A stretch of DNA of 22,359 nt from a virus. The position numbers and the translations under genes are program-made. Location: positions 1-22,359 of the IMG/VR virus record IMGVR_UViG_3300023192_002385; one strand, written 5' to 3'. Positions 911-22,359 of this stretch are shown here, one piece after another (position 1 is the first letter of the stretch; every line of letters starts with the position of its first letter). The notes beneath the pieces are model-generated. The model searched no databases. It had not been told where the DNA came from and saw only the letters and a list, made by a program, of their open reading frames with translations.

Positions 911-1822
911 TTATTGTACGCTTATTGGTTGTTCTATGTTGTTATAATATGTTATGTTGCTACTCTTTAGTGTAGATTCTAGTATGAATGACGCTGAGTT
1001 TATACCTGTACCATCTCCAATTATGCTATTATTTATTACTAAGGTACCAACTTTGAAATGTCTTAACTCTACTGGTGCTCCAAACATCTTAACATGTTGA
1101 ATAGTAATCTCTCCACAAGTAGTAGTTCCATCAGTCATATCAATAATAATTCTATCGTAATCACTTCCTTCTACTTTAGGAATTGTTAATGCTCCTCTTA
1201 CTCCGCCAAAGTTTATGTTGTTCACAGTTTGAGTTGCTATTGAAAAGGAATTACCATCTGCTATATTATTTGAGATTATTACTTTATACGCAGTAGCATT
1301 TCCAATAATTAATTTAGGTGCTACTAATCCGTTGATTGTTAAGGTCTCACATTCTAAATAGTTAGTATCATTACCTTCATTACCAAACATTAACAACGTG
1401 TGGTTTAATCCTGAATCTTTTCCTATCTCTAAATCACTTAAGAATATCTTATCTATACGGGAATTGCCTATAATTAAATTAAGCGTTTGAGTACCAGTAA
1501 TTTCTCCATTAATTAAAACTTCAGCTCCTGACTCTAGTTGTAATTCAGTAACATAATCTCCTGCGTGTGGGAATACTGGAGTATTATCTGTTCCAGCTAC
1601 AATTAAAAACATAGTCATAATAAATCCAATAGCTACTGCTGAATATCCAATCAGCATCATCTTCTTTGGTTTAGCTTCTAATTTGAAAAAAGGAATTCTT
1701 ATCGGAATTCGTGGAAGTTTTCTATTGTTAAGTTTAGGCATAGAAAATCTTAGATAATTAAAACTAAACTTTTTCTTCTTAGCTTTCATCTTGGATTTGA
1801 TCCATTCTTCTTCAGGTTTCAT
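911..1822 (-). CDS. membrane-anchored beta-repeat (beta-helix-like) protein
   Basis: The 303-residue protein begins with a strongly basic cytoplasmic segment (about 1-54, Lys/Arg-rich), followed by one hydrophobic helix at about 55-77 and a roughly 225-residue outside domain. That domain is Ile, Val, Asn, Gly and Thr rich, with repeated short strands (for example VLINGEITG, LTINGLVAPKLIIGN), the look of a right-handed parallel beta-helix like those of pectate-lyase and bactofilin-type folds. The topology suggests N-in, C-out anchoring, either in the host membrane or as a virion spike. Its ATG overlaps the TGA of the upstream two-helix membrane protein by four bases, so the two are co-translated. 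No catalytic motif or known family is recognised. Confidence 0.7.
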   Translation of the reverse strand: MKPEEEWIKSKMKAKKKKFSFNYLRFSMPKLNNRKLPRIPIRIPFFKLEAKPKKMMLIGYSAVAIGFIMTMFLIVAGTDNTPVFPHAGDYVTELQLESGAEVLINGEITGTQTLNLIIGNSRIDKIFLSDLEIGKDSGLNHTLLMFGNEGNDTNYLECETLTINGLVAPKLIIGNATAYKVIISNNIADGNSFSIATQTVNNINFGGVRGALTIPKVEGSDYDRIIIDMTDGTTTCGEITIQHVKMFGAPVELRHFKVGTLVINNSIIGDGTGINSASFILESTLKSSNITYYNNIEQPISVQ

Positions 1823-5145: not shown

Positions 5146-5546
5146 TTTTTTCTCCATATGATAAGACAGCTTGGGAAAGGTGCTGGTTGAGGTTTTATCC
5201 CATCTGGCTTTTCAAATTTAATTCTTCCTTTCACGAACCTAACTTCTGCTGAACCGAATATATATTTGTGAAACGCAATGGTATCTGTTCTTGCAGGAAT
5301 TAACATAACTACAGTATTACCTTTGTTCCATTCTTCATAACTCTTCTTTATCCAAAGTTTTAAATTTGAATAAGGAGGATTAACATAATTGGAATCTTTC
5401 CAATCAATCTCTAATCCGTCCCACGTAGGTTGAGGATAAGGACAGGAATCAAAATCAAACTTAAATTCTGCATTCAATTCATCATATAACTTCTTTGGTG
5501 TTAACCAAATATTCGATTGACTCCTTGCGATATATCCTCTGCTCAT
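5142..5546 (-). CDS. phage-type DNA N6-adenine methyltransferase (Dam family)
   Basis: This 134-residue protein matches the short phage Dam family, which methylates the exocyclic N6 of adenine using S-adenosylmethionine. Visible landmarks are WLTPKKLYDELNAEF (14-28), FDFDSCP (30-36) and the catalytic NPPY motif at 56-59 in YVNPPYSNLKLWI. These are followed by VVMLIPARTDTIAFH (79-93) and a GRIKF strand (107-111). The length is usual for the family. Its ATG overlaps the helicase stop by four bases (ATGA), so expression is coupled. No partner nuclease is nearby, so the likely role is self-protection or marking of viral DNA. Confidence 0.9.
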   Translation of the reverse strand: MSRGYIARSQSNIWLTPKKLYDELNAEFKFDFDSCPYPQPTWDGLEIDWKDSNYVNPPYSNLKLWIKKSYEEWNKGNTVVMLIPARTDTIAFHKYIFGSAEVRFVKGRIKFEKPDGIKPQPAPFPSCLIIWRKK

Positions 5547-13053: not shown

Positions 13054-13076
13054 CACTGCTCAGTGGTATATATAAG
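13054..13076 (+). promoter_or_regulatory. palindrome abutting a TATA box
   Basis: CACTGCTCAGTG (13054-13065), two 5-base arms around CT, is followed after one base by the strong TATA-like TATATATAAG on the + strand. It looks like an operator next to a promoter. No + strand gene follows directly, so it may drive a short RNA ending at the T run at 13111-13123, or an antisense RNA toward the resolvase. Confidence 0.4.
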
Positions 13077-13137
13077 AGGTATCTAAAACCGACAGAAAAA
13101 ATTGGAGATTATTTTTTTTTTTTGTAAAAGCTAAAAC

Positions 13138-13299
13138 TTAGTGATGGTACCTAATTCGGTTAGGTACGTCTTCAGGAGGCTTAACTCTATCTCTACATTG
13201 AATACAAGTTCTTCGTCTAACTGCAGTAAGCCATTCACGAGCACACCACTTACATCTGCTATATCTTCTAGGTGGGTTTACGTACGGCGGTTTAATAAT
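13138..13299 (-). CDS. zinc-ribbon frame without ATG (ATT start or -1 frameshift extension)
   Basis: The frame encodes 53 residues with a clear zinc-ribbon: CKWC (16-19) and CIQC (32-35), surrounded by Arg-rich sequence and preceded by KPPYVNPPRRYSR. It looks like a real DNA- or RNA-binding module, yet it has no ATG, GTG or TTG before an in-frame stop at 13312-13314. Two readings are possible. One is initiation at ATT 13299, eight bases after GGAG. The other is a -1 frameshift from the resolvase gene at T TTA AAA (13305-13299), which would join this ribbon to the resolvase C-terminus. The last codons lie in a perfect inverted repeat (13147-13167, GTACCTAA/TTAGGTAC). An old indel is the third possibility. 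Confidence 0.55.
   Translation of the reverse strand: MIKPPYVNPPRRYSRCKWCAREWLTAVRRRTCIQCRDRVKPPEDVPNRIRYHH
13147..13167. repeat. perfect 8-base inverted repeat at a gene end
   Basis: GTACCTAA and TTAGGTAC surround TTCGG. It lies inside the last codons of the zinc-ribbon frame. As RNA it would be a stable hairpin, possibly a 3'-end or termination structure for the - strand transcript, although no long T run follows directly. Confidence 0.5.
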
Positions 13300-13595
13300 T
13301 TTAAAAACTCCTTAAGCTCAATCACAGCATAAGTTTTACCACGATCTTCTTTTACTACTTGCCAGTCTACATTCTCATTAGGTTTTAAATAATCAGCAAT
13401 TGACTTACGACACTTAGCTTGTATCTTCCAGGGTGTTCTACTATCAATGGGATAAATTATAACATCTACTTCGCTATGCATTCCAAGACTTCTACCGTCT
13501 GATGCCCACGCACGCTTTGCCTTGAATCCGTACTTCTCAGCTATATCTACAATTAGGTTTTCAAATCTAGTTCCTTTTCTTTTTTGCCAGCTCAT
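13278..13595 (-). CDS. Hjc-like Holliday junction resolvase (PD-(D/E)XK nuclease)
   Basis: This 105-residue protein has the archaeal Hjc layout. It begins with KRKGTRFENLIVDIAEKYGF (residues 5-24, with Glu12), then KAKRAWASDGRS, a metal-binding Asp44 in SEVDVII and the core pair Q59-x-K61 in KIQAKC, the usual E-x-K varied to Q-x-K. It would cut four-way junctions, resolving replication or recombination intermediates before packaging. GGAGAAAG precedes the ATG and the start overlaps the upstream zinc-ribbon gene by 29 bases. It is slightly shorter than cellular Hjc, and a -1 frameshift near its end could extend it with a zinc ribbon. Confidence 0.85.
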   Translation of the reverse strand: MSWQKRKGTRFENLIVDIAEKYGFKAKRAWASDGRSLGMHSEVDVIIYPIDSRTPWKIQAKCRKSIADYLKPNENVDWQVVKEDRGKTYAVIELKEFLKLLNRRT

Positions 13596-13800
13596 TGTTT
13601 TCTTTCTCCAAGGTTCTGATATAATTTATTCTTGCCATGAAATCATTCAGTTTAGCACTCCGCTTTGCAGGAGTTCTTTTATAATTTCCTGAACCTGATT
13701 TTGAGCATAATGTACAATAATTGGTAGCTTTAGAAGCGGCACGGAATTTCCAATTACACCGGGGACATATTTTAAACTTGTACCCTTTAGTCCTTACCAT
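13567..13800 (-). CDS. 77-residue zinc-ribbon protein with coiled C-terminus
   Basis: From the ATG at 13800 the protein begins MVRTKGYKFKICPRCNWKFR and has a zinc ribbon of C12, C15, C29 and C32 (CPRC, CTLC), then a basic linker and a helix-rich, charged C-terminus (MARINYIRTLEKENNELAKK). It probably binds nucleic acid and may regulate or assist the resolvase, which it overlaps. An upstream TTG (13836) extends the frame but lies too close to the likely TATA box (13845-13850), so the ATG is preferred. Confidence 0.7.
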   Translation of the reverse strand: MVRTKGYKFKICPRCNWKFRAASKATNYCTLCSKSGSGNYKRTPAKRSAKLNDFMARINYIRTLEKENNELAKKKRN

Positions 13801-13916
13801 AAAGTAGCGGGGAGGTCGGTGAAAAACAAAATGCAAAAAGAAACTTTATACAAATATCCTCCCCACCATTTATAAAAAGGGCAAGTCTTTTATATAAGTT
13901 TTTCCTTTTCTGAAAT
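13801..13916. promoter_or_regulatory. divergent promoter region between early and late genes
   Basis: For the + strand, TTTTATATAA (13888-13897) lies 19 bases before the ATG at 13917, implying a leaderless late transcript; a second box (TTTATAAA, 13869-13876) lies further up. For the - strand, TATAAA (13850-13845) would give a leader of about 22 bases before the ATG at 13800. Oppositely oriented GGGGAGG (13809-13815) and CCTCCCC (13858-13864) flank the - strand TATA box, standing out in AT-rich DNA. They look like paired sites for a switch protein. Confidence 0.6.
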
Positions 13917-14222
13917 ATGGAATCGAATACTGATACAAATGTAAAGTTGGAAAACGGGAAAATATTTTTCGCAACGAACAAGGTAGATGAAATGACTGTG
14001 AATGAAGCACAATTACAAATGCAAAATATTGATAAGGGGATTGAAAACCTCAATAATCAAAAAGATAATATGACCACCAACATATCAAATATGGAAAAAG
14101 AGATTGTTCGGTTGAACGGTATCAAACAAAGTATTATATCTGCGGGTGTCGAAGAATTAATTGAAGAAGATGGATCTAACAAAACAGGAAATTCAGGAAC
14201 TCCAAACGGAACTGAAAAATAA
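13917..14222 (+). CDS. 101-residue coiled-coil protein, first late gene
   Basis: The protein begins MESNTDTNVKLENGKIFFAT. Residues about 30-75 form a heptad-like coiled coil (LQMQNIDKGIENLNNQKDNM), followed by an acidic and Gly/Asn-rich tail. It has no cysteines, signal or membrane segment. A TATA box at 13888-13897 suggests a leaderless start. It overlaps the next gene by 53 bases and precedes the terminase genes, so a packaging or assembly accessory is possible. No family is recognised. Confidence 0.7.
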   Translation: MESNTDTNVKLENGKIFFATNKVDEMTVNEAQLQMQNIDKGIENLNNQKDNMTTNISNMEKEIVRLNGIKQSIISAGVEELIEEDGSNKTGNSGTPNGTEK

Positions 14223-14376
14223 ACGAACTCTTAAAGCTCTAGAGAAAGAGTGGGCAGATGGTTGGGCTACACTCCAATCGTGTGATGATACCTCTGAAGG
14301 CAAAGCTTTACGGAAACATTGTAACCTAGTGATGGGTAAGATAATCCTTCTAAAACAGGAAATTTATGGATTATGA
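14170..14376 (+). CDS. 68-residue helical protein before terminase
   Basis: Starting at the ATG at 14170 (the frame extends to a TTG at 14161) the product begins MDLTKQEIQELQTELKNKRT and is two or three charged helices with ALEKEWADGWATLQSCDDT in the middle. GAAGAAG precedes the ATG. It overlaps the upstream gene by 53 bases and the terminase small-subunit gene by 11. No family is recognised. Confidence 0.6.
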   Translation: MDLTKQEIQELQTELKNKRTLKALEKEWADGWATLQSCDDTSEGKALRKHCNLVMGKIILLKQEIYGL

Positions 14377-14941
14377 AGAGATAGCTAAACAGCTCGCTGC
14401 GTTACCGAATACAGAGGAAACACGGCGGAGAGCATTGTTGCTCAAAGAATTTTTGATCTCTGAAGAAAATGCGAAGACAAGAATTGCTGATATAGATAAT
14501 GGAATCTTTAGAGATACATTATCGAGTGACGAGGCTGCTATGGCTGAGCGTCTGTTTAATAATATCAAACGCGAGTTTGAAATCAATTCACAAAAAGACT
14601 TAATGGATTTATGGTTAATGGTTGCTACATTCGTTAAGAGTAAACGATTCATTAGAATCAAAGCAACAGATCCTGATGTCGCAAACAAGATTTCATCAAT
14701 CACCAAAAAATTCTTAGATATATATTCTTCGCTAGGGCGTGAGCTAGGGTTATCGAGACAGCAAAGACTGGTTCGAAGAACAGTTAGTGTGGATGATACA
14801 GGTAGCATAACTGAATTGTTCGCAGGAATTGAGCAAGTAGAATTAGATACTCCAGCTAAACGAAGTAAGAAGAAAAAGAAGTATGGCATTTCAAGCAGCG
14901 ACGAAGAAGAAGTTGAAGCAACTTCCGAAGAATCTAACTAA
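14366..14941 (+). CDS. terminase small subunit (P27-type, probable)
   Basis: The 191-residue protein is mainly helical. Residues about 110-135 (ISSITKKFLDIYSSLGRELG followed by LSRQQR) match the conserved end of P27-family small terminase subunits, in which a long helix leads to GLSPxxR. A basic run (KRSKKKKKYG, about 164-173) and an acidic tail follow. It would recognise viral DNA and load the large subunit. Position supports this: it overlaps the large-subunit gene by 59 bases. The usual N-terminal helix-turn-helix is not obvious. Confidence 0.75.
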   Translation: MDYEEIAKQLAALPNTEETRRRALLLKEFLISEENAKTRIADIDNGIFRDTLSSDEAAMAERLFNNIKREFEINSQKDLMDLWLMVATFVKSKRFIRIKATDPDVANKISSITKKFLDIYSSLGRELGLSRQQRLVRRTVSVDDTGSITELFAGIEQVELDTPAKRSKKKKKYGISSSDEEEVEATSEESN

Positions 14942-16283
14942 GAGTTTAAGTAAAGCGAAAGAAAACCCCGCACTCTTTTGTAGAACATTTCTAAGAAATC
15001 CTTTGGACGCAAGTAAAGCCTTTGAACCTACGTGGTACCAAGAGAAATTTTTTAATAGTAAAAAGAGATTTGTTCTTATTAATGCAGGAAGACAGGTTGG
15101 TAAATCCGAGATGGTAGTAAAATATTCTATCTGGTTAGCATACACTAAACCAAAGTCCAAAATTTTGTTCATCTCTGCTTCGCAAAGACAGGCATCATTA
15201 CTATTACATAAAGTAAGACAAGATATAGAACATAGTGAAATATTAGCTAGATCAATCCAGAGAGCAAGTAGAACTGAAGTACATCTCGATAACGGGAGCA
15301 TGATTGTATCCTTACCTCCAAGTGAAGCTACAATTCGAGGATACACTGCAGACATTGTATTCATAGATGAAGCAGCACACCTATCGAACGACGAATTATA
15401 TTATGAAGTAATAATGCCAATGGTTATTAGAACAGGAGGAAGAATTATACTCACCTCTACACCGTACGGGAAAGCAGGGTTCTTTTATAATATGTATTTA
15501 GAATGGAGTCAAGATAATGATCGCGCAGACGTGTTTCATTTCCCTGCGCTGAAAGATGGTAAACCTTTAGCACCGGGAGTAGATATCAGAGATTTAGAAG
15601 GCCAACGTAAATCAATGGGACCTATTCGTTTCGCCGTTGAGTATTTAGCTGAGTTCGTTGATGACGGAGTTCTCTTTTTCCCAACTGCTTTAATTAAAAC
15701 GTGTATGGAAGATTTCCCACAAGAGAGTTATGGTTCACCTGATGGTGAATACTATATGGGCATAGACTGGGGCAAGCAGAATTCTTCCACAGTTGTTACG
15801 ATCTTACAAAAGAACACAGCAGGACCTAGTAAGATTGTTATGATAAAAGAGTTCAAGCAGATGGCCTATGATCAAGTAATCGGACATGTAATCCAATTCG
15901 CCGAAAGGTTTAAGATTCGGAAGTGCTTAGCAGATACAGGAGCAGGATTAGCTCAAATAGATCAACTCAAAGCTATGGGATTGAGAATCAAAGGATTCAA
16001 TTTTACCGTAGGCAGTAAGGTTGATTTGTTTTCAAATCTTCGGCTGATGATGGAGACAAAGTCACTGGTCTTACCATACAACGAAAAGTTGAAAGCACAA
16101 CTCACGTCATTCAGCCAGAAGGTTTCACCAACGGGAAAAATGCTGCTTCACGCACCAGAAGGTATGCATGATGACTATGTTGATAGTTTGGCTTTAGCAG
16201 TATATAGTCTCAAACGAATGAGTCCAGGGTTCTTTGTTAGAAACGTATTAAAACCCAGAGTAAGATTCAAAAGAAACATTTAA
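14883..16283 (+). CDS. terminase large subunit
   Basis: This 466-residue packaging motor hydrolyses ATP to push DNA into the prohead and cuts the concatemer. The ATPase has Walker A GRQVGKS (69-75), Walker B IVFIDE (158-163) and coupling motif TSTP (191-194). The RNase H-like nuclease has Asp295 in MGIDWGKQNSS, Asp351 in LADTGAG and the acidic cluster HDDYVDS (429-435, D430/D431/D434). Both domains are intact and the length is normal. It overlaps the small-subunit gene by 59 bases, indicating coupled expression, and the portal follows after 34 bases. Confidence 0.96.
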   Translation: MAFQAATKKKLKQLPKNLTKSLSKAKENPALFCRTFLRNPLDASKAFEPTWYQEKFFNSKKRFVLINAGRQVGKSEMVVKYSIWLAYTKPKSKILFISASQRQASLLLHKVRQDIEHSEILARSIQRASRTEVHLDNGSMIVSLPPSEATIRGYTADIVFIDEAAHLSNDELYYEVIMPMVIRTGGRIILTSTPYGKAGFFYNMYLEWSQDNDRADVFHFPALKDGKPLAPGVDIRDLEGQRKSMGPIRFAVEYLAEFVDDGVLFFPTALIKTCMEDFPQESYGSPDGEYYMGIDWGKQNSSTVVTILQKNTAGPSKIVMIKEFKQMAYDQVIGHVIQFAERFKIRKCLADTGAGLAQIDQLKAMGLRIKGFNFTVGSKVDLFSNLRLMMETKSLVLPYNEKLKAQLTSFSQKVSPTGKMLLHAPEGMHDDYVDSLALAVYSLKRMSPGFFVRNVLKPRVRFKRNI

Positions 16284-16317
16284 TAACATCAACCGAATTA
16301 CTGTATCATCACACTCA

Positions 16318-17652
16318 ATGGCGTCACTAGGTAACCGATTCAGGAAGAGTGTTAGAAGTTTATTTCTAACCGAGTCTGGTAAGGGAAAGATAAGCACAGT
16401 ACGGGGTTTTTTTAGTTCTTATAATAATAACTATTCATTAAAAAAAGGTTATGATACTTACGAAAAAATATATAAGGAAGTGCCATTGGTACAAGCAGCA
16501 ATCAATTACACGTCAGATCTTGCAGTCGGTGTTGGTTACGAGTTACTTGGTGAAGATGAAAGAAAAATTAAGACAGTAACTGAGTTCTTTGAAAGTCAAG
16601 ACTTTCATATGATCGCACTAAGGCTTGCTAGAAATATGCTAATTTATGGAAATGGTTATCTCGAATTAGTTAGAGCAGGTTCTAGAATCGTCGAATTAAA
16701 AATTTTACATCCTAAGACTATGAGTGTGACTTTATCAGAAGATGGTACTGGTGAAATTATAGGTTATGAGCAAAAGAGTTCACACACACAATCTATTGAT
16801 TTCACAACGGATGAAATTGCACACTTCAAGATGAATGTCATCGGAGATGCAGCAGAAGGAACCTCAGCAATTGAATGTGTAAGAACAGCACTGGCAACTA
16901 AGCTTCAAATGGAGCATGATTTAAGATTAATCTCTCATAGATACGCAGCACCTCAAGTTCATTATAAATTAGGTACAGAGACTGAACCTGCTACCGAATC
17001 ACAGATTGATGATTTCGAATCTCAACTAAGTGACCAGAATCCTGAAATGGATTTAATCACAGCACACAATGTTGGAGCAGATGTATTAAGACCGTTAGGT
17101 TCAAAGATTGGTGTCGAAGATTTTTTATCTCACATGGAGAATCAAGTCATTGCAGGATTACAAGTTCCTGAAGTAGCGTTAGGTAGGGGACAAAGTATTA
17201 CTGAAGCAACTGCTAAAGTTCAAATTGGAATATTCGATAGAAGAGTTAAATCCATTCAAGAAGTTCTTACAACACAAATCAACATGCTTATCATTGATAA
17301 GATAGTTACTCCTGGTTCAGTAAAACTTAAGTTCGGAGAATTTAGTAAAGAAGACGAAGACGTAAAAGTAAACAGATTGCTTAGATTAAAGGCAGCTGGA
17401 ATTATTGATGCAAGATATGTAGCACAACAATTAGGGATTAAAGTTAAATTTATTCCTAAAGAGGATCCTGGAAACCCTGGAAACAAAGCGTTGAAAGGTC
17501 TGGATGATAATAAGAAAGATAAGTCTCCACATAAAGCACCTCTGAAAGAAGGATTCTATTATTTTGACCAATCAGGAAAACCTGAAAGAATTAGTGCTAA
17601 AGATGAACAATGGTTTAGAGATTACTATCGAAAGGGGATAACTCCATGGTAG
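16318..17652 (+). CDS. portal protein (HK97-type)
   Basis: This 444-residue protein forms the ring at one capsid vertex through which DNA enters. Typical portal features are IYKEVPLVQAAINYTSDLAV (about 56-75), the aliphatic stretch RLARNMLIYGNGYLELVR (102-119), VELKILHPKTMSV and a C-terminal helical region with PEVALGRGQSITEATAKVQI (about 280-299). Its position after terminase and before protease and capsid agrees. No clear Shine-Dalgarno site precedes the ATG. The stop codon overlaps the following gene's start by seven bases. The C-terminal 60 residues are charged and probably flexible. Confidence 0.9.
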   Translation: MASLGNRFRKSVRSLFLTESGKGKISTVRGFFSSYNNNYSLKKGYDTYEKIYKEVPLVQAAINYTSDLAVGVGYELLGEDERKIKTVTEFFESQDFHMIALRLARNMLIYGNGYLELVRAGSRIVELKILHPKTMSVTLSEDGTGEIIGYEQKSSHTQSIDFTTDEIAHFKMNVIGDAAEGTSAIECVRTALATKLQMEHDLRLISHRYAAPQVHYKLGTETEPATESQIDDFESQLSDQNPEMDLITAHNVGADVLRPLGSKIGVEDFLSHMENQVIAGLQVPEVALGRGQSITEATAKVQIGIFDRRVKSIQEVLTTQINMLIIDKIVTPGSVKLKFGEFSKEDEDVKVNRLLRLKAAGIIDARYVAQQLGIKVKFIPKEDPGNPGNKALKGLDDNKKDKSPHKAPLKEGFYYFDQSGKPERISAKDEQWFRDYYRKGITPW

Positions 17653-17936
17653 TTCCGTTTAAGATTGTTAGAAATCCTTACGATAAAAATAAGTGGCAAG
17701 CAGTTTATCAAGGTGATGATGCAGATGTACAATTCAAAACCAATCACACATTAAAAGACCAATCTGTCGGTCTTGGTGAACCTGGAAAAACAGACGGTCA
17801 ACAATGGCCTGAGAATAAATGGAGCACTAAGCAAGATTTGACAAATGTCACTGTAACCATAACAAACGCATTACTGCGAGGTCAACACCCTGAAGATTCA
17901 CCACTTAACACAAAACGTAGTTCTTACAACTATTAA
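17646..17936 (+). CDS. 96-residue protein between portal and protease, unknown function
   Basis: The frame begins MVVPFKIVRNPYDKNKWQAV and is polar, Asn/Thr/Asp-rich, with strands KWQAVYQGDDADVQFKTN and VTVTITNALLRG. It has no cysteines and no membrane segment. It starts inside the portal stop (seven-base overlap), so it is translated with the portal, and may be a head-assembly accessory or minor structural protein. No family is recognised. Confidence 0.65.
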   Translation: MVVPFKIVRNPYDKNKWQAVYQGDDADVQFKTNHTLKDQSVGLGEPGKTDGQQWPENKWSTKQDLTNVTVTITNALLRGQHPEDSPLNTKRSSYNY

Positions 17937-17941
17937 TTATA

Positions 17942-17949
17942 TTTAAATA
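17942..17949 (+). promoter_or_regulatory. TATA box for the prohead protease and capsid genes
   Basis: TTTAAATA lies 22 bases before the ATG at 17972, the common leaderless spacing of this window. It may give the protease, decoration and capsid genes an extra late promoter. Confidence 0.5.
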
Positions 17950-17971
17950 CGCCAAACGATTTAAATAATTT

Positions 17972-18991
17972 ATGCCAGCAGATTTTAAACGATGTATATT
18001 AGACGTTACTACACAACAAACAAAAAAAGGAAAGTCTGATAAAGATGCTAAAGCTTCGGCTTTTGCTATTTGTACATCGCGTTTTAAGAAAGCCGGTAGA
18101 AGGTATAAAGAGATGAAAAATATGAAAATAAATTTTGTTGTACCTATCGTTGAAAGCTATTCAGAAAACACAACTGATGATGGCATTCTGCGAATCGAAG
18201 GTGTTGCAATTGAGGAAACTACTTCGCGTAACAACGTTACGTATGAAATTGGTGAAATTAGTAAAGCAGCAGAAACTCTAGTCGGAGTACCACTTTTGAA
18301 AGATCATGAGAATACCGTTGACGGTATTGTCGGTCGAGTAACTGAAGCCTATGTAGACGGAAAGCAATTGAAGTTTAAGGCAGATGTAGTCGATGAATCT
18401 ATGCAAAAGAAGATTCGTAGTGGCTTAATCAGAAATGTTTCTGTCGGTTCCAAAATTGAGGAACTTAAAAAAATAGTTGAAGATGGAGTTACGAATTTTG
18501 TAGCGAAGAGTATCGAGTTCTTAGAATTATCGTTGGTAGCAATACCTGGTGTTCCGGGCGCAACATTCTCTGCAAGAGTTACAGAGGCGTACAATTCTTT
18601 CGAAAGTAAAGAACAAGAAAAAATGGAACGAAAATTGGAAGCAATTGAAGAAAAACTTGCTCTTCTCTTAAAAGAAGACGCAGAAGAAACCGAAGCAGAA
18701 CCAGAAGCTGAAGCTGAAAAAGAAAAAGAAGCAGAAGCAGAACCAGAAGCTGAGGAGAATGACGACGCAGCAGAAGAGAAACTTAATAATATGAAATCAG
18801 AAATTTCAGAATTAAAGTCTCACATGTTGGATTTAACCAAAGAAGTAATTAAGTCACGAGCTATTACTTCGGAAAATGTAAAAGCATTACCAGAATGGGT
18901 ATCAGGCGAATTGAAAAATGAGCGTGGTAACTACTGGCAGGAATGGGATATGGCCTATTGGCGAGAACATCACCCATTAGCAAAACTATAG
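17972..18991 (+). CDS. prohead protease fused to scaffold
   Basis: The 339-residue protein has three parts. Residues 1-50 form an extra basic N-terminal segment (ADFKRCILDV; ASAFAICTSRFKKAG). Residues about 52-208 are a prohead serine protease: VGVPLLKDHEN (His112), GLIRNVSVGSKI (Ser157 or Ser160) and IEFLELSLVAIPGVPGATF. Residues about 210-300 are a Glu/Ala-rich low-complexity stretch and a coiled coil, fitting a scaffold that the protease cuts away. The capsid gene follows one gene later, with no sign of a separate scaffold, so the fusion supplies that job. It ends in an aromatic tail (WQEWDMAYW). A TATA box lies 22 bases upstream. Confidence 0.88.
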   Translation: MPADFKRCILDVTTQQTKKGKSDKDAKASAFAICTSRFKKAGRRYKEMKNMKINFVVPIVESYSENTTDDGILRIEGVAIEETTSRNNVTYEIGEISKAAETLVGVPLLKDHENTVDGIVGRVTEAYVDGKQLKFKADVVDESMQKKIRSGLIRNVSVGSKIEELKKIVEDGVTNFVAKSIEFLELSLVAIPGVPGATFSARVTEAYNSFESKEQEKMERKLEAIEEKLALLLKEDAEETEAEPEAEAEKEKEAEAEPEAEENDDAAEEKLNNMKSEISELKSHMLDLTKEVIKSRAITSENVKALPEWVSGELKNERGNYWQEWDMAYWREHHPLAKL

Positions 18992-19003
18992 GAAATAAAA
19001 TAA

Positions 19004-19429
19004 ATGGTAAACACACAATTAATTAATATGCCTGGTACTACGTACCATGCAGTTGCTAGTGGCGCAGTCTCAGCAGGAGACTTATTAGCATCAGCATCAA
19101 CAACCAACGTTATGACTGCAATCAGTCAAGCAGGTTATGAAGCTGGCACAGTGCTAGTGGCCGTAGCAACAACAAGTGATGACGCAATCATCGTGGGGGT
19201 AGCCCTTACAGACGCAGCAAGCGGAGAAACATTATCCGTAGCAACACAAGGTTTGTTCATCTTCGCAGGAGACGCAGCTAACGTTTCAACAACTGGGAAG
19301 CTCGTAGAACAAGGTGCAACAGCACAAACCGTTAAAGACGCAGCAAGTTACAGCAATGTAATCGGCAGAGCAGTAACTGGTTCAACTGCAGCAGCATCAA
19401 AATACCTTTTGGTAAGATTAAACATTTAG
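19004..19429 (+). CDS. capsid decoration-like protein (DUF2190-type)
   Basis: This 141-residue, Ala/Ser/Thr/Val-rich beta protein contains HAVASGAVSAGDLLASAS near the start, then VGVALTDAASGETLSVATQG and GRAVTGSTAAASKYLLVRL at the end. This SGAVxAGD ... GVAL...GE.xxVxxxG pattern is that of small capsid-decorating proteins encoded beside the major capsid gene. It would bind the outer shell and stabilise it. No protease or membrane feature is present. It is 12 bases after the protease stop and 15 before the capsid ATG. Confidence 0.75.
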   Translation: MVNTQLINMPGTTYHAVASGAVSAGDLLASASTTNVMTAISQAGYEAGTVLVAVATTSDDAIIVGVALTDAASGETLSVATQGLFIFAGDAANVSTTGKLVEQGATAQTVKDAASYSNVIGRAVTGSTAAASKYLLVRLNI

Positions 19430-19444
19430 GAGGAGTGAAGTAAA

Positions 19445-20293
19445 ATGAAATACAATATTAAGGAAAGTGGAATTTTATCCACAGGAAGCACATCGACAGG
19501 AAGCAATGTACTTGCTCCAACCATGGTTTATCGAACCCTGCAAGAAGCAGTACGAAAGAATTTGGTCTTTAGACCATTGGCAGGACTGTTAATTGGTCCG
19601 AACGAAATACCAGGTCCAGCAGTAAAAGTGTCACTACAAGATCCAGAATCTATGGTAGTACACGAAGTAGCTGAAGGAGCTGAATTACCGTACGGTCAAG
19701 AAACGTACAGTCAAATCACATTGACTCCAGTGAAATACGGTGTAACAATCGGAATTACTAGAGAAATGATTGAAGACAGCCAATTCTCAGTAGTTGAGAA
19801 AAACGCAGCAACAGCAGGATATGCTTTAGCTGATAAAGAAGATAGTTTGGTAGCAGACGCTCTAAGTTCTGGAGCCGGAAGCACTGTAACTGGTGGAGCA
19901 ACTCTATCATTAGCTAACTTAACGGAAGCAATGGAAGATTTAGAATCCAGCGGATACACAGCAACTGACTTAATTGTAGGAACTGAAGTAGCAGCAGATA
20001 TTCGAAATTTAGCTGGATTAAACAGCGCAAATTTGAGCATCACATCAAGCGACTTACAAGTACGACTACTTGGAAACATTTTCGGTATGAACGTTATCGT
20101 GTCAAGAAATGTCACAGCTAAACATTGTTTAGTTATTGATAGAAACCACGCATATGCAATTGCTGAAAAGAGACCAGTAACTCTTGAGAATTTTGACGAT
20201 TTCATGAGAGATACAAACCACACTGTAGCAACAATTAGAATTGCAACTTCGGTATTACGAAGTTCTGCAATCGCAAAGATTACTACAAGTTAA
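19445..20293 (+). CDS. major capsid protein (HK97 fold)
   Basis: The 282-residue protein has an N-terminal arm (1-45), an E-loop region (EIPGPAVKVSLQDPESMVVH), the TLTPVKYGVTIGITREMIED strand-helix core (about 91-110), then spine-helix and P/A-domain segments ending in FMRDTNHTVATIRIATSVLR. These match HK97-type capsid proteins from tailed viruses. There is no long N-terminal delta scaffold domain, which agrees with the scaffold being fused to the protease. AGGAGG precedes the ATG, a strong ribosome-binding site suited to the most abundant protein. A hairpin terminator follows. Confidence 0.9.
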   Translation: MKYNIKESGILSTGSTSTGSNVLAPTMVYRTLQEAVRKNLVFRPLAGLLIGPNEIPGPAVKVSLQDPESMVVHEVAEGAELPYGQETYSQITLTPVKYGVTIGITREMIEDSQFSVVEKNAATAGYALADKEDSLVADALSSGAGSTVTGGATLSLANLTEAMEDLESSGYTATDLIVGTEVAADIRNLAGLNSANLSITSSDLQVRLLGNIFGMNVIVSRNVTAKHCLVIDRNHAYAIAEKRPVTLENFDDFMRDTNHTVATIRIATSVLRSSAIAKITTS

Positions 20294-20308
20294 AGTTGAA
20301 TAGATGAT

Positions 20309-20343
20309 GGGAGGGCTTTTATAGTTCTCCCGTTTATTTATTT
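20309..20343 (+). terminator. hairpin with T-rich tail after the capsid gene
   Basis: GGGAG (20309-20313) pairs with CTCCC (20327-20331) and a T-rich stretch follows at 20333-20343. Modest in strength, it may partly stop transcripts after the capsid gene and so raise capsid relative to downstream genes. Confidence 0.55.
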
Positions 20344-20356
20344 ATAATAATCAAGC

Positions 20357-22359
20357 ATGGCACTACCGAGTCAAATTACAGATAGAGAATACCAGAAGTT
20401 TACCGATATTAGCGGGTTACCTGCTATACGTGTAGATGTCGTAAGGACAGTTGGCGGTGGAGGCGGCGGAGGTTCCTCAGCTACAGAATATACTGATGAC
20501 GGATCTTTCACAGTAGCATCCGATAAAGGAAATGCTATTGGAGGTATCTTTACAACAGATACAATAGATGTAGGGGATTACGGCGTATTCAAAATAAACG
20601 CAGATAGAGAACTAGCAACAACTATTGAAAATGCTCCTAGTGTTAAATTACAAGACGGATCAGGAACTTCAATAACTTCAACACTCGTAGGCTCAGATCA
20701 AGGATTGGATGTTCAGATTTTAAACGCATCTTCCATAGGTAGTGGTTCACAATACGCAGATGGAACTACGGTAGCTTCACAAGTCGGTAACATTATTTTA
20801 GGAACTGATGGAACAGATTTACAATTTTTATCTGTTCACACAGATGGAGCATTAAAAGTAAAATCTATTGCTGATACTGTCGACACTAATGTTACAAATT
20901 CAACTCTCGCAGTAACTAAATCTGGAACTTGGAATGTCGGATTAAATACAGGTTCAAATGTAATTGGTAAAGTAAAAGTAACTGATGGCTCAGACGAATT
21001 AGCAATCACCGCGACAGGTCAAGTTAGTGTAGATACTGTAGATACAGTAACAACAATAACTAATGATATCGGTTCTAAAACCAAAGATGGTTCAGGAACT
21101 TCAATAACTTCAACACTCGTAGGTTCAGATCAAGGATTAGATGTTAACTTAGTTAACTCAACAATAGCAGTAACTACTGACGAAGCAAATGATTCTATTC
21201 AAGTATATGGATACGATGGAAGTGCTAATCAAGCAATCAAAACTGATTCATCTGGAAACTTACAAATAGATGTATTAACTCAACCAACCCTTTCAGAATC
21301 AACAGATGATATTTTAGTATATGGTAATGATGGATCTATTAATCGAAAATTAAAAACAGATACTTCAGGAAATTTACAAGTAGATTTAGCATCTTCTTTA
21401 CCTACTGGCACAAATTTAATAGGTGATATCGGAACTATATCTACAATTACAAATAATGTTGATGTAGATTTACATGATGGTGTTGGAGGTTCAATCACTT
21501 CCACAACCGTTGGATTCAACACAGGAATTGATGTTAATATAGTAGGCGGAACTACTGCAGGTTCTCAATATGAAGATGGCGACGTTGTAGTAAGTGGTCA
21601 AGACGGAACAATAGCTATGGGCACAGATGGTTCTAATTTACAATTCTTATCAACAAATTCAAGCGGAAGATTACAAGTAGATATAATTTCGGGAGGAGGG
21701 AGCAATGATTCTGTTATAACAGATGACTCAGCTTTCACTGCCGCATCAGATAAACTTACAGTAACTGGTGGTTTTTATACTACAGACCAAGTAGACGTTG
21801 GCGATGTTGGAGCATTTAAAATAAATGCTGATAGAGAACTCGCAGTGTTTTTAGGAGAATCTTTACCTGCTGGTTCAAATCTTATAGGAGCAGTCACACA
21901 GAGTGGAACGTGGGACATTAATGATATAAGTGGAACAATTAGTCTTCCAACGGGAGCAGCAACTGCGTCTAAACAATTAGCAGATGGTCATAATGTAACT
22001 GTCGATAATGGTTCTGGAGTAAGTGCAGTTAATATTCAAGATGGTGGTAACTCAATTACTATCGACGCTACTTCTTTACCTTTACCTTCTGGAGCAGCAA
22101 CTGAAGCAACTCTTTCAGATATTGAGACTAACACAGACGCATTAGCAGGTGTAACCAGTACAGGAACAGCATTGGATGTAAATGTAGCAAGTGGTACTAT
22201 AATCGCAAATATCGAAGGTGATTATGTAGATGATAGTGCTTTCGCCGTAGGTTCAGACAAAGGATTAATGGTTGGTGGATTCTTTACTACCGATACAATT
22301 GATTCAGGAGACTTCGGAGCTTTCAAGATAAACGCAGACCGTGAGCTTGGAGTATTCTT
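20357..22359 (+). CDS. long repetitive beta-rich structural protein (partial, runs off the end)
   Basis: The frame begins MALPSQITDREYQKFTDISG at ATG 20357 and stays open to the window's end (667 codons). After a seven-glycine linker it is Gly/Ser/Thr/Asp-rich with internal repeats. A roughly 42-residue module, DDSAFxxASDK...GGFFTTDTIDxGDFGAFKINADREL, appears at about 20490, 21720 and 22230. A GTSITSTLVGSDQGLDV unit appears twice, and units like DGTDLQFLS...GxLQVDI recur. Related DD-AF...DEGDVG...DRKL modules are common in phage structural proteins of unknown detail (from memory). A neck, tail or spike protein on the virion surface is likely. A weak AT-rich promoter region precedes the ATG. 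Confidence 0.85.
   Translation, partial: MALPSQITDREYQKFTDISGLPAIRVDVVRTVGGGGGGGSSATEYTDDGSFTVASDKGNAIGGIFTTDTIDVGDYGVFKINADRELATTIENAPSVKLQDGSGTSITSTLVGSDQGLDVQILNASSIGSGSQYADGTTVASQVGNIILGTDGTDLQFLSVHTDGALKVKSIADTVDTNVTNSTLAVTKSGTWNVGLNTGSNVIGKVKVTDGSDELAITATGQVSVDTVDTVTTITNDIGSKTKDGSGTSITSTLVGSDQGLDVNLVNSTIAVTTDEANDSIQVYGYDGSANQAIKTDSSGNLQIDVLTQPTLSESTDDILVYGNDGSINRKLKTDTSGNLQVDLASSLPTGTNLIGDIGTISTITNNVDVDLHDGVGGSITSTTVGFNTGIDVNIVGGTTAGSQYEDGDVVVSGQDGTIAMGTDGSNLQFLSTNSSGRLQVDIISGGGSNDSVITDDSAFTAASDKLTVTGGFYTTDQVDVGDVGAFKINADRELAVFLGESLPAGSNLIGAVTQSGTWDINDISGTISLPTGAATASKQLADGHNVTVDNGSGVSAVNIQDGGNSITIDATSLPLPSGAATEATLSDIETNTDALAGVTSTGTALDVNVASGTIIANIEGDYVDDSAFAVGSDKGLMVGGFFTTDTIDSGDFGAFKINADRELGVF
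20654..20713 (+). repeat. first copy of a 60-base in-frame repeat
   Basis: This segment is nearly identical to 21086-21145, including a run of more than 30 identical bases. The offset is 432 bases, a multiple of three, so it encodes the same GTSITSTLVGSDQGLDV unit twice. Confidence 0.8.
21086..21145 (+). repeat. second copy of the 60-base in-frame repeat
   Basis: This copy of the segment at 20654-20713 differs mostly at silent or near-silent positions. The near identity at base level, higher than that of the other protein modules, points to recent duplication or conversion within the gene. Confidence 0.8.

Follow-up and report, generated by a model that had tools for sequence, protein, structure and literature searches.

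The window, the whole 22,359-nt stretch of DNA analysed here, is a 22.4-kb virus fragment recorded in IMG/VR, and its minus strand carries a cluster of three genes in the order ribbon A, resolvase, ribbon B (Table 1). Other genes in the window encode a terminase, a portal, a prohead protease and an HK97-type capsid protein, a set by which the virus is classed as a tailed virus, together with the replication-type MCM helicase and PriS-like primase and a winged-helix protein. Judged from its gene content, the virus probably has an archaeal host. No host or provirus relatives were found in 84,980 species genomes searched with resolvase and terminase profiles, and no RNA families or tRNAs were found in the window. 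The last gene (20357-22359) contains internal repeats of ~60-125 nt that are 70-94% identical to one another and resemble those of repetitive tail-fibre-like or adhesin-like proteins.

Table 1. Positions of the genes and sequence elements of the ribbon-resolvase cluster in the window
Feature	Position	Strand	Details
Second small zinc-ribbon gene (ribbon A)	13567..13800	-	ATG; upstream of resolvase; Cys4
PDDEXK (Holliday-junction-resolvase-like) nuclease gene	13278..13595	-	ATG start, 105 aa; phrog_244, E 2.6e-8
GGAG, Shine-Dalgarno-like	13308..13311	-	8 nt before ATT; GAGGAG in L001
T TTA AAA heptamer, end of resolvase gene	13299..13305	-	C TTA AAA in L001; slippery site not conserved
Proposed AUU start codon	13297..13299	-	Counterpart AUU in L001; near ATG of L006
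Zinc-ribbon gene (ribbon B)	13138..13299	-	53 codons from ATT 13299; homologues L001, L006, L007, L050, L052, L056
Conserved non-coding element	13070..13110	-	TTTTTTCTGTCGGTTTT then TATATATA; downstream of ribbon gene

The middle gene of the cluster is classed as a Holliday junction resolvase or PDDEXK nuclease by its family match and its motif: the E-x-D...Q-A-K signature is present, EVDV and KIQAK are invariant among the resolvases, and further matches to Mrr_cat and Hjc are sub-threshold. The two ribbon genes that flank it may be paralogues, as judged from an alignment in which their four Cys residues coincide; the hhalign probability is only 24%.

Ribbon B (hereafter the ribbon) is a frame of 53 codons with the spacing C-x2-C-x12-C-x2-C and the translation GVFKIIKPPYVNPPRRYSRCKWCAREWLTAVRRRTCIQCRDRVKPPEDVPNRIRYHH*. 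It lies in the -1 frame relative to the resolvase gene, contains no ATG, GTG or TTG, and belongs to an open stretch bounded by a TAA whose last base is 13312 and by the stop TAA at 13140..13138. The two genes overlap by 22 nt, the resolvase stop being the seventh codon past the heptamer T TTA AAA. An earlier note on this DNA had described the frame with its two CxxC pairs and missing canonical starts, the heptamer with the exact -1 relation and the resolvase end seven codons on, and the GGAG eight bases ahead of ATT 13299; re-reading the open reading frames of the window bore out each of these observations. Gene finders limited to ATG, GTG and TTG overlook the ribbon gene, and it is also missing from the list of open reading frames of the window.

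The ribbon protein probably binds zinc and nucleic acid, a prediction based on its four Cys residues and basic composition. The Cys spacing is retained in all six aligned ribbon members. Small zinc ribbons known from archaea and archaeal viruses, such as DUF7564, have four Cys in two CxxC knuckles within about 35-55 residues, and the present family is similarly compact; three alignment members match DUF7564 weakly (best E 4e-4), whereas the window protein itself has no significant match to any Pfam, NCBIfam or PHROG family. The predicted structure is a hairpin with one short helix (mean pLDDT 69.6, moderate confidence), and a PDB structure search with this moderate-confidence model returned no significant match. 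Ribosomal protein uS14 (type Z) shares the C-x2-C-x12-C-x2-C spacing exactly and has a comparable Arg-Tyr stretch ahead of it; a PDB profile search gave an E-value of only 0.14 and there was no Pfam S14 match, and homology is not claimed.

The ribbon in related viruses

Six other viral contigs (L001, L006, L007, L050, L052 and L056) have homologues of the ribbon in the equivalent position, and the frame is therefore more than a chance opening; the BLASTP E-value between the window ribbon and that of L006 is 4e-9. L006 and L007 have the ribbon as a gene of its own, started at ATG (MYKKILRLYSVCKWCGDKWLTPFKKKYCRSCRE...), placed +1 relative to the resolvase and overlapping it by 29 nt. In L050, L052 and L056 it likewise stands as a gene with its own ATG, in the +1 frame (MPRYYSVCKLCGLYWLTSSKQNICSPCYSELKGRMY), and the gene whose end it overlaps, by 17 nt, is the other ribbon gene and not the resolvase, which was not found on these three contigs. 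The arrangement of the window recurs in L001, whose resolvase is about 90% identical to that of the window: here the ribbon is shifted by -1 relative to the resolvase and overlaps it by 16 nt, with ATT as its putative start, giving (I/M)AKRVRYYSVCLICGDKWLTPFKKNYCRLCREEDW.

Neither the close relatives nor ~20 further, more distant resolvase loci showed a resolvase-ribbon fusion, and the ribbon is absent downstream of the distant resolvases L017-L039 (about 40-50% identical). Because the frame and the upstream partner vary while the short overlap and the ribbon itself persist, the ribbon is best understood as a stand-alone overlapping gene of a ribbon family and not as a frameshifted extension, a conclusion that is well supported by the sequences compared. 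The comparison of relatives that the earlier note had recommended, for in-frame fusions or for separate ATG-started ribbons, thus yielded the latter in five contigs and the former in none. More generally, relatives that switch frame yet keep the gene can resolve overlaps that look like frameshifts.

The ribbon gene is dispensable, being absent from L003-L005, which are close resolvase relatives. In these three contigs the resolvase is followed by a different small open reading frame in the -1 frame (5290-5500 in L003), for which an ATG start is available (MKVMMLEIDEGIMDLL...), and the spot after the resolvase seems to exchange small genes. In L050, an unrelated open reading frame (MLTKRNSTIQGNVGLGYAIQYFTSQGYIVSIPL...; 1029-1460, plus strand) lies close by on the opposite strand and perhaps encodes another PDDEXK-like nuclease. 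By resolvase similarity L001 is closest to the window, whereas by terminase similarity L055, L046 and L050 are closer than L001, a disagreement pointing to exchange of the resolvase-ribbon module among related viruses. Phage records contained no match to the ribbon, and additional scans of viral contigs with the ribbon and with ribbon A revealed no new viruses.

The non-coding element beyond this gene cluster occurs once per contig searched in the six viruses compared (L001 about 5470-5510, L006 about 5490-5530, L050 856 (-), L052 250 (-) and L060 629 (-), in addition to the window). Its core, (A)TTTTCTGTCGGTTTT, is in most cases succeeded by a TATA-like stretch and a AAGAATTTTTTCG-like sequence, in that order, with the variant CTGGCGG in L006. 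Possible roles for the element are those of a promoter or activator site, of a terminator, or of a site for replication or packaging.

Translation of the ribbon frame

An error of sequencing or assembly might conceal an ATG or an in-frame fusion, and the near-identical contig 3300028612_000629 misses 13203-13329, so that the bases there rest on one assembly. Such an error is nevertheless extremely improbable: L001, an independent contig, repeats both the -1 relation and the ATT, which led an indel to be ruled unlikely, and the resolvase frame of the window is right, since the gene stops where its L001 and L003 counterparts stop. Contig 3300028612_000629 (L002/L054) is the only near-identical contig, with 99.99% identity to the window over 13330-22359. 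The first 127 bases of L054 consist of 13132-13202 in inverted orientation and then a piece of 14316-14379, also inverted, the two meeting at a AAAACTTA inverted repeat; this end is a fold-back chimera, probably produced by amplification or assembly.

Programmed -1 frameshifting at T TTA AAA, which would append the ribbon to the C-terminus of the resolvase, was proposed in the earlier note. The heptamer is of the X XXY YYZ type, a GGAG lies upstream and the ribbon frame is precisely -1; moreover, -1 frameshifting is known from archaea, and haloarchaeal tailed viruses have been suggested to use it (PMC8211752). The relatives, however, tell against it, since L001 has the same -1 arrangement with C TTA AAA, which is not slippery, while the five ATG-started homologues are in the +1 frame, three of them after a different gene, and none of the resolvase relatives examined carries a fusion. 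The heptamer alone is not notable either, because this A/T-rich virus has 25 in-frame slippery-type heptamers in about 5600 window codons and the same T TTA AAA arises by chance once more within this very resolvase gene. In addition, pseudoknot-free folding of the 100 nt from ATT 13299 indicated no stimulatory structure of the kind expected 5-9 nt downstream of a slippery site (z +0.57; 141 of 200 shuffles fold as well). Compared with archaeal -1 frameshifting in fucA1 of S. solfataricus, the locus shares an A/T-rich slippery-type heptamer and a -1 frame but differs in that neither heptamer nor frame is conserved, no stimulator is present and relatives have no fusion. On the grounds of relatives, heptamer and folding, a frameshifted fusion was rejected as very unlikely.

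Separate initiation at AUU 13299 is, by contrast, the likely origin of the ribbon, as the pattern of conserved signals suggests. The ATT is common to the window and L001, with GGAG 8 nt before it in both, and it is placed similarly to the start ATG in L006: the L001 start precedes the first Cys by 10 residues and the L006 start by 11. GGAG at this spacing agrees with the Shine-Dalgarno (SD) type and spacing of the other genes of this virus, although it doubles as Lys-Glu codons of the resolvase. The locus thus combines an open, conserved frame lacking a canonical start with a conserved SD motif at the usual distance. For L001, a GTG start was considered and discarded. Its ribbon has no ATG or TTG, and its sole GTG stands directly before the first Cys, inside the conserved core; initiation there would cut off the sequence RYYS, which lies ahead of the GTG and beyond the resolvase stop. 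Since RYYS is placed beyond that stop and is identical in L050, translation in L001 begins further upstream than the GTG. A non-canonical start is not a habit of the virus: each of the 17 other window genes with coding-strand homologues has an ATG that coincides with the conserved start or adjoins it, and the ribbon is therefore an exception. Of the two mechanisms that the earlier note had weighed equally, AUU initiation was strengthened by the GGAG and ATT kept in L001 and by the nearby L006 ATG, whereas frameshifting was not sustained.

Some doubt attaches to ATT 13299 in the window itself because it stands 15 residues before the first Cys, while the ATG-started homologues begin 7-11 residues before it. 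The ribbon might accordingly be translated separately from another near-cognate codon, several of which occur in the open stretch (AUU 13296, GUU, GUA), or by reinitiation at no fixed codon. This possibility is considered improbable, given that ATT 13299 has GGAG at the usual distance and is matched by an ATT in the equivalent position of L001.

Evidence of selection bears on whether the frame encodes a functional protein at all. Between L001 and L006, 22 of 28 ribbon residues are identical, nucleotide differences fall 6/4/21 across the three codon positions, pN is 0.18 with pS saturated, and none of 5000 randomisations was as extreme. By these measures the pair is under strong purifying selection, which implies a selected protein in a pair where only L006 has an ATG. 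Among the copies, that of the window has diverged furthest (randomisation values of 0.01-0.02 against L001 and L006, and 0.57 against L050), and it shows only a modest signal of selection. This divergence, together with the lack of a canonical start and the dispensability indicated by L003-L005, would suit a window copy that has lost its start codon and is now a decaying or hardly translated remnant. Against such decay, the window retains all four Cys, their spacing, the WLT motif and a full-length open frame, and L001 lacks an ATG at the same place yet shows clear purifying selection against L006. Decay of the window copy is thus regarded as unlikely, though less remote than the other alternatives.

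Possible coupling to the resolvase gene

If the ribbon is initiated at AUU 13299, the GGAG inside the resolvase gene would position ribosomes for this codon, and they could get to the GGAG either directly or after finishing the resolvase, the latter implying a probable coupling of the two genes. Initiation would proceed at a low rate, keeping ribbon output low, and the product would be a compact Cys4 ribbon with a basic tail. In E. coli, AUU has been found to initiate at ~0.3% of the ATG level (Hecht et al., cited in PMC10666635).

In archaea, termination-reinitiation from SD motifs within genes is an established process (PMC6728339). The archaeal and bacterial pairs of this kind resemble the present locus in their same-strand overlap and in an SD motif inside the upstream gene (PMC6728339), features that accompany every overlap observed here (22, 16, 29 and 17 nt). 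However, coupling has been shown mainly for overlaps of 1-8 nt (PMC10666635), in comparison with 22 nt in the window and 16-29 nt in its relatives, and this greater length counts against coupling; the start codon here also differs in not being NTG.

The closest parallels come from bacteria. The AUU-started genes infC and pcnB of E. coli and cvfC1 of Staphylococcus resemble the ribbon in having the AUU preceded by an SD motif. For cvfC1, which encodes a 61-residue putative zinc-finger protein, a conserved AUU start with a strong SD motif has been demonstrated by ribosome profiling (PMC13009471), and cvfC1 and the ribbon are both small potential zinc-finger proteins with a conserved non-canonical start (PMC13009471). 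Unlike these bacterial genes, the ribbon belongs to a virus with archaeal-type replication genes, and its proposed start lies inside an upstream gene. By analogy with cvfC1, it might be, although the idea is tentative and more doubtful than AUU initiation as such, that an archaeal virus starts a zinc-ribbon regulator at AUU in coupling with a nuclease gene, and that selection keeps the start weak and the protein scarce.

A review of archaea gives only AUG, GUG and UUG as start codons (PMC7531240), and according to a review of recoding, elongation and termination are the only steps at which archaea have been demonstrated to translate non-canonically (PMC8211752). The ribbon gene would be an unusual case if it is indeed initiated at AUU in an archaeal host. 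In light of the latter statement (PMC8211752), an archaeal virus with natural AUU initiation would offer a useful test case.
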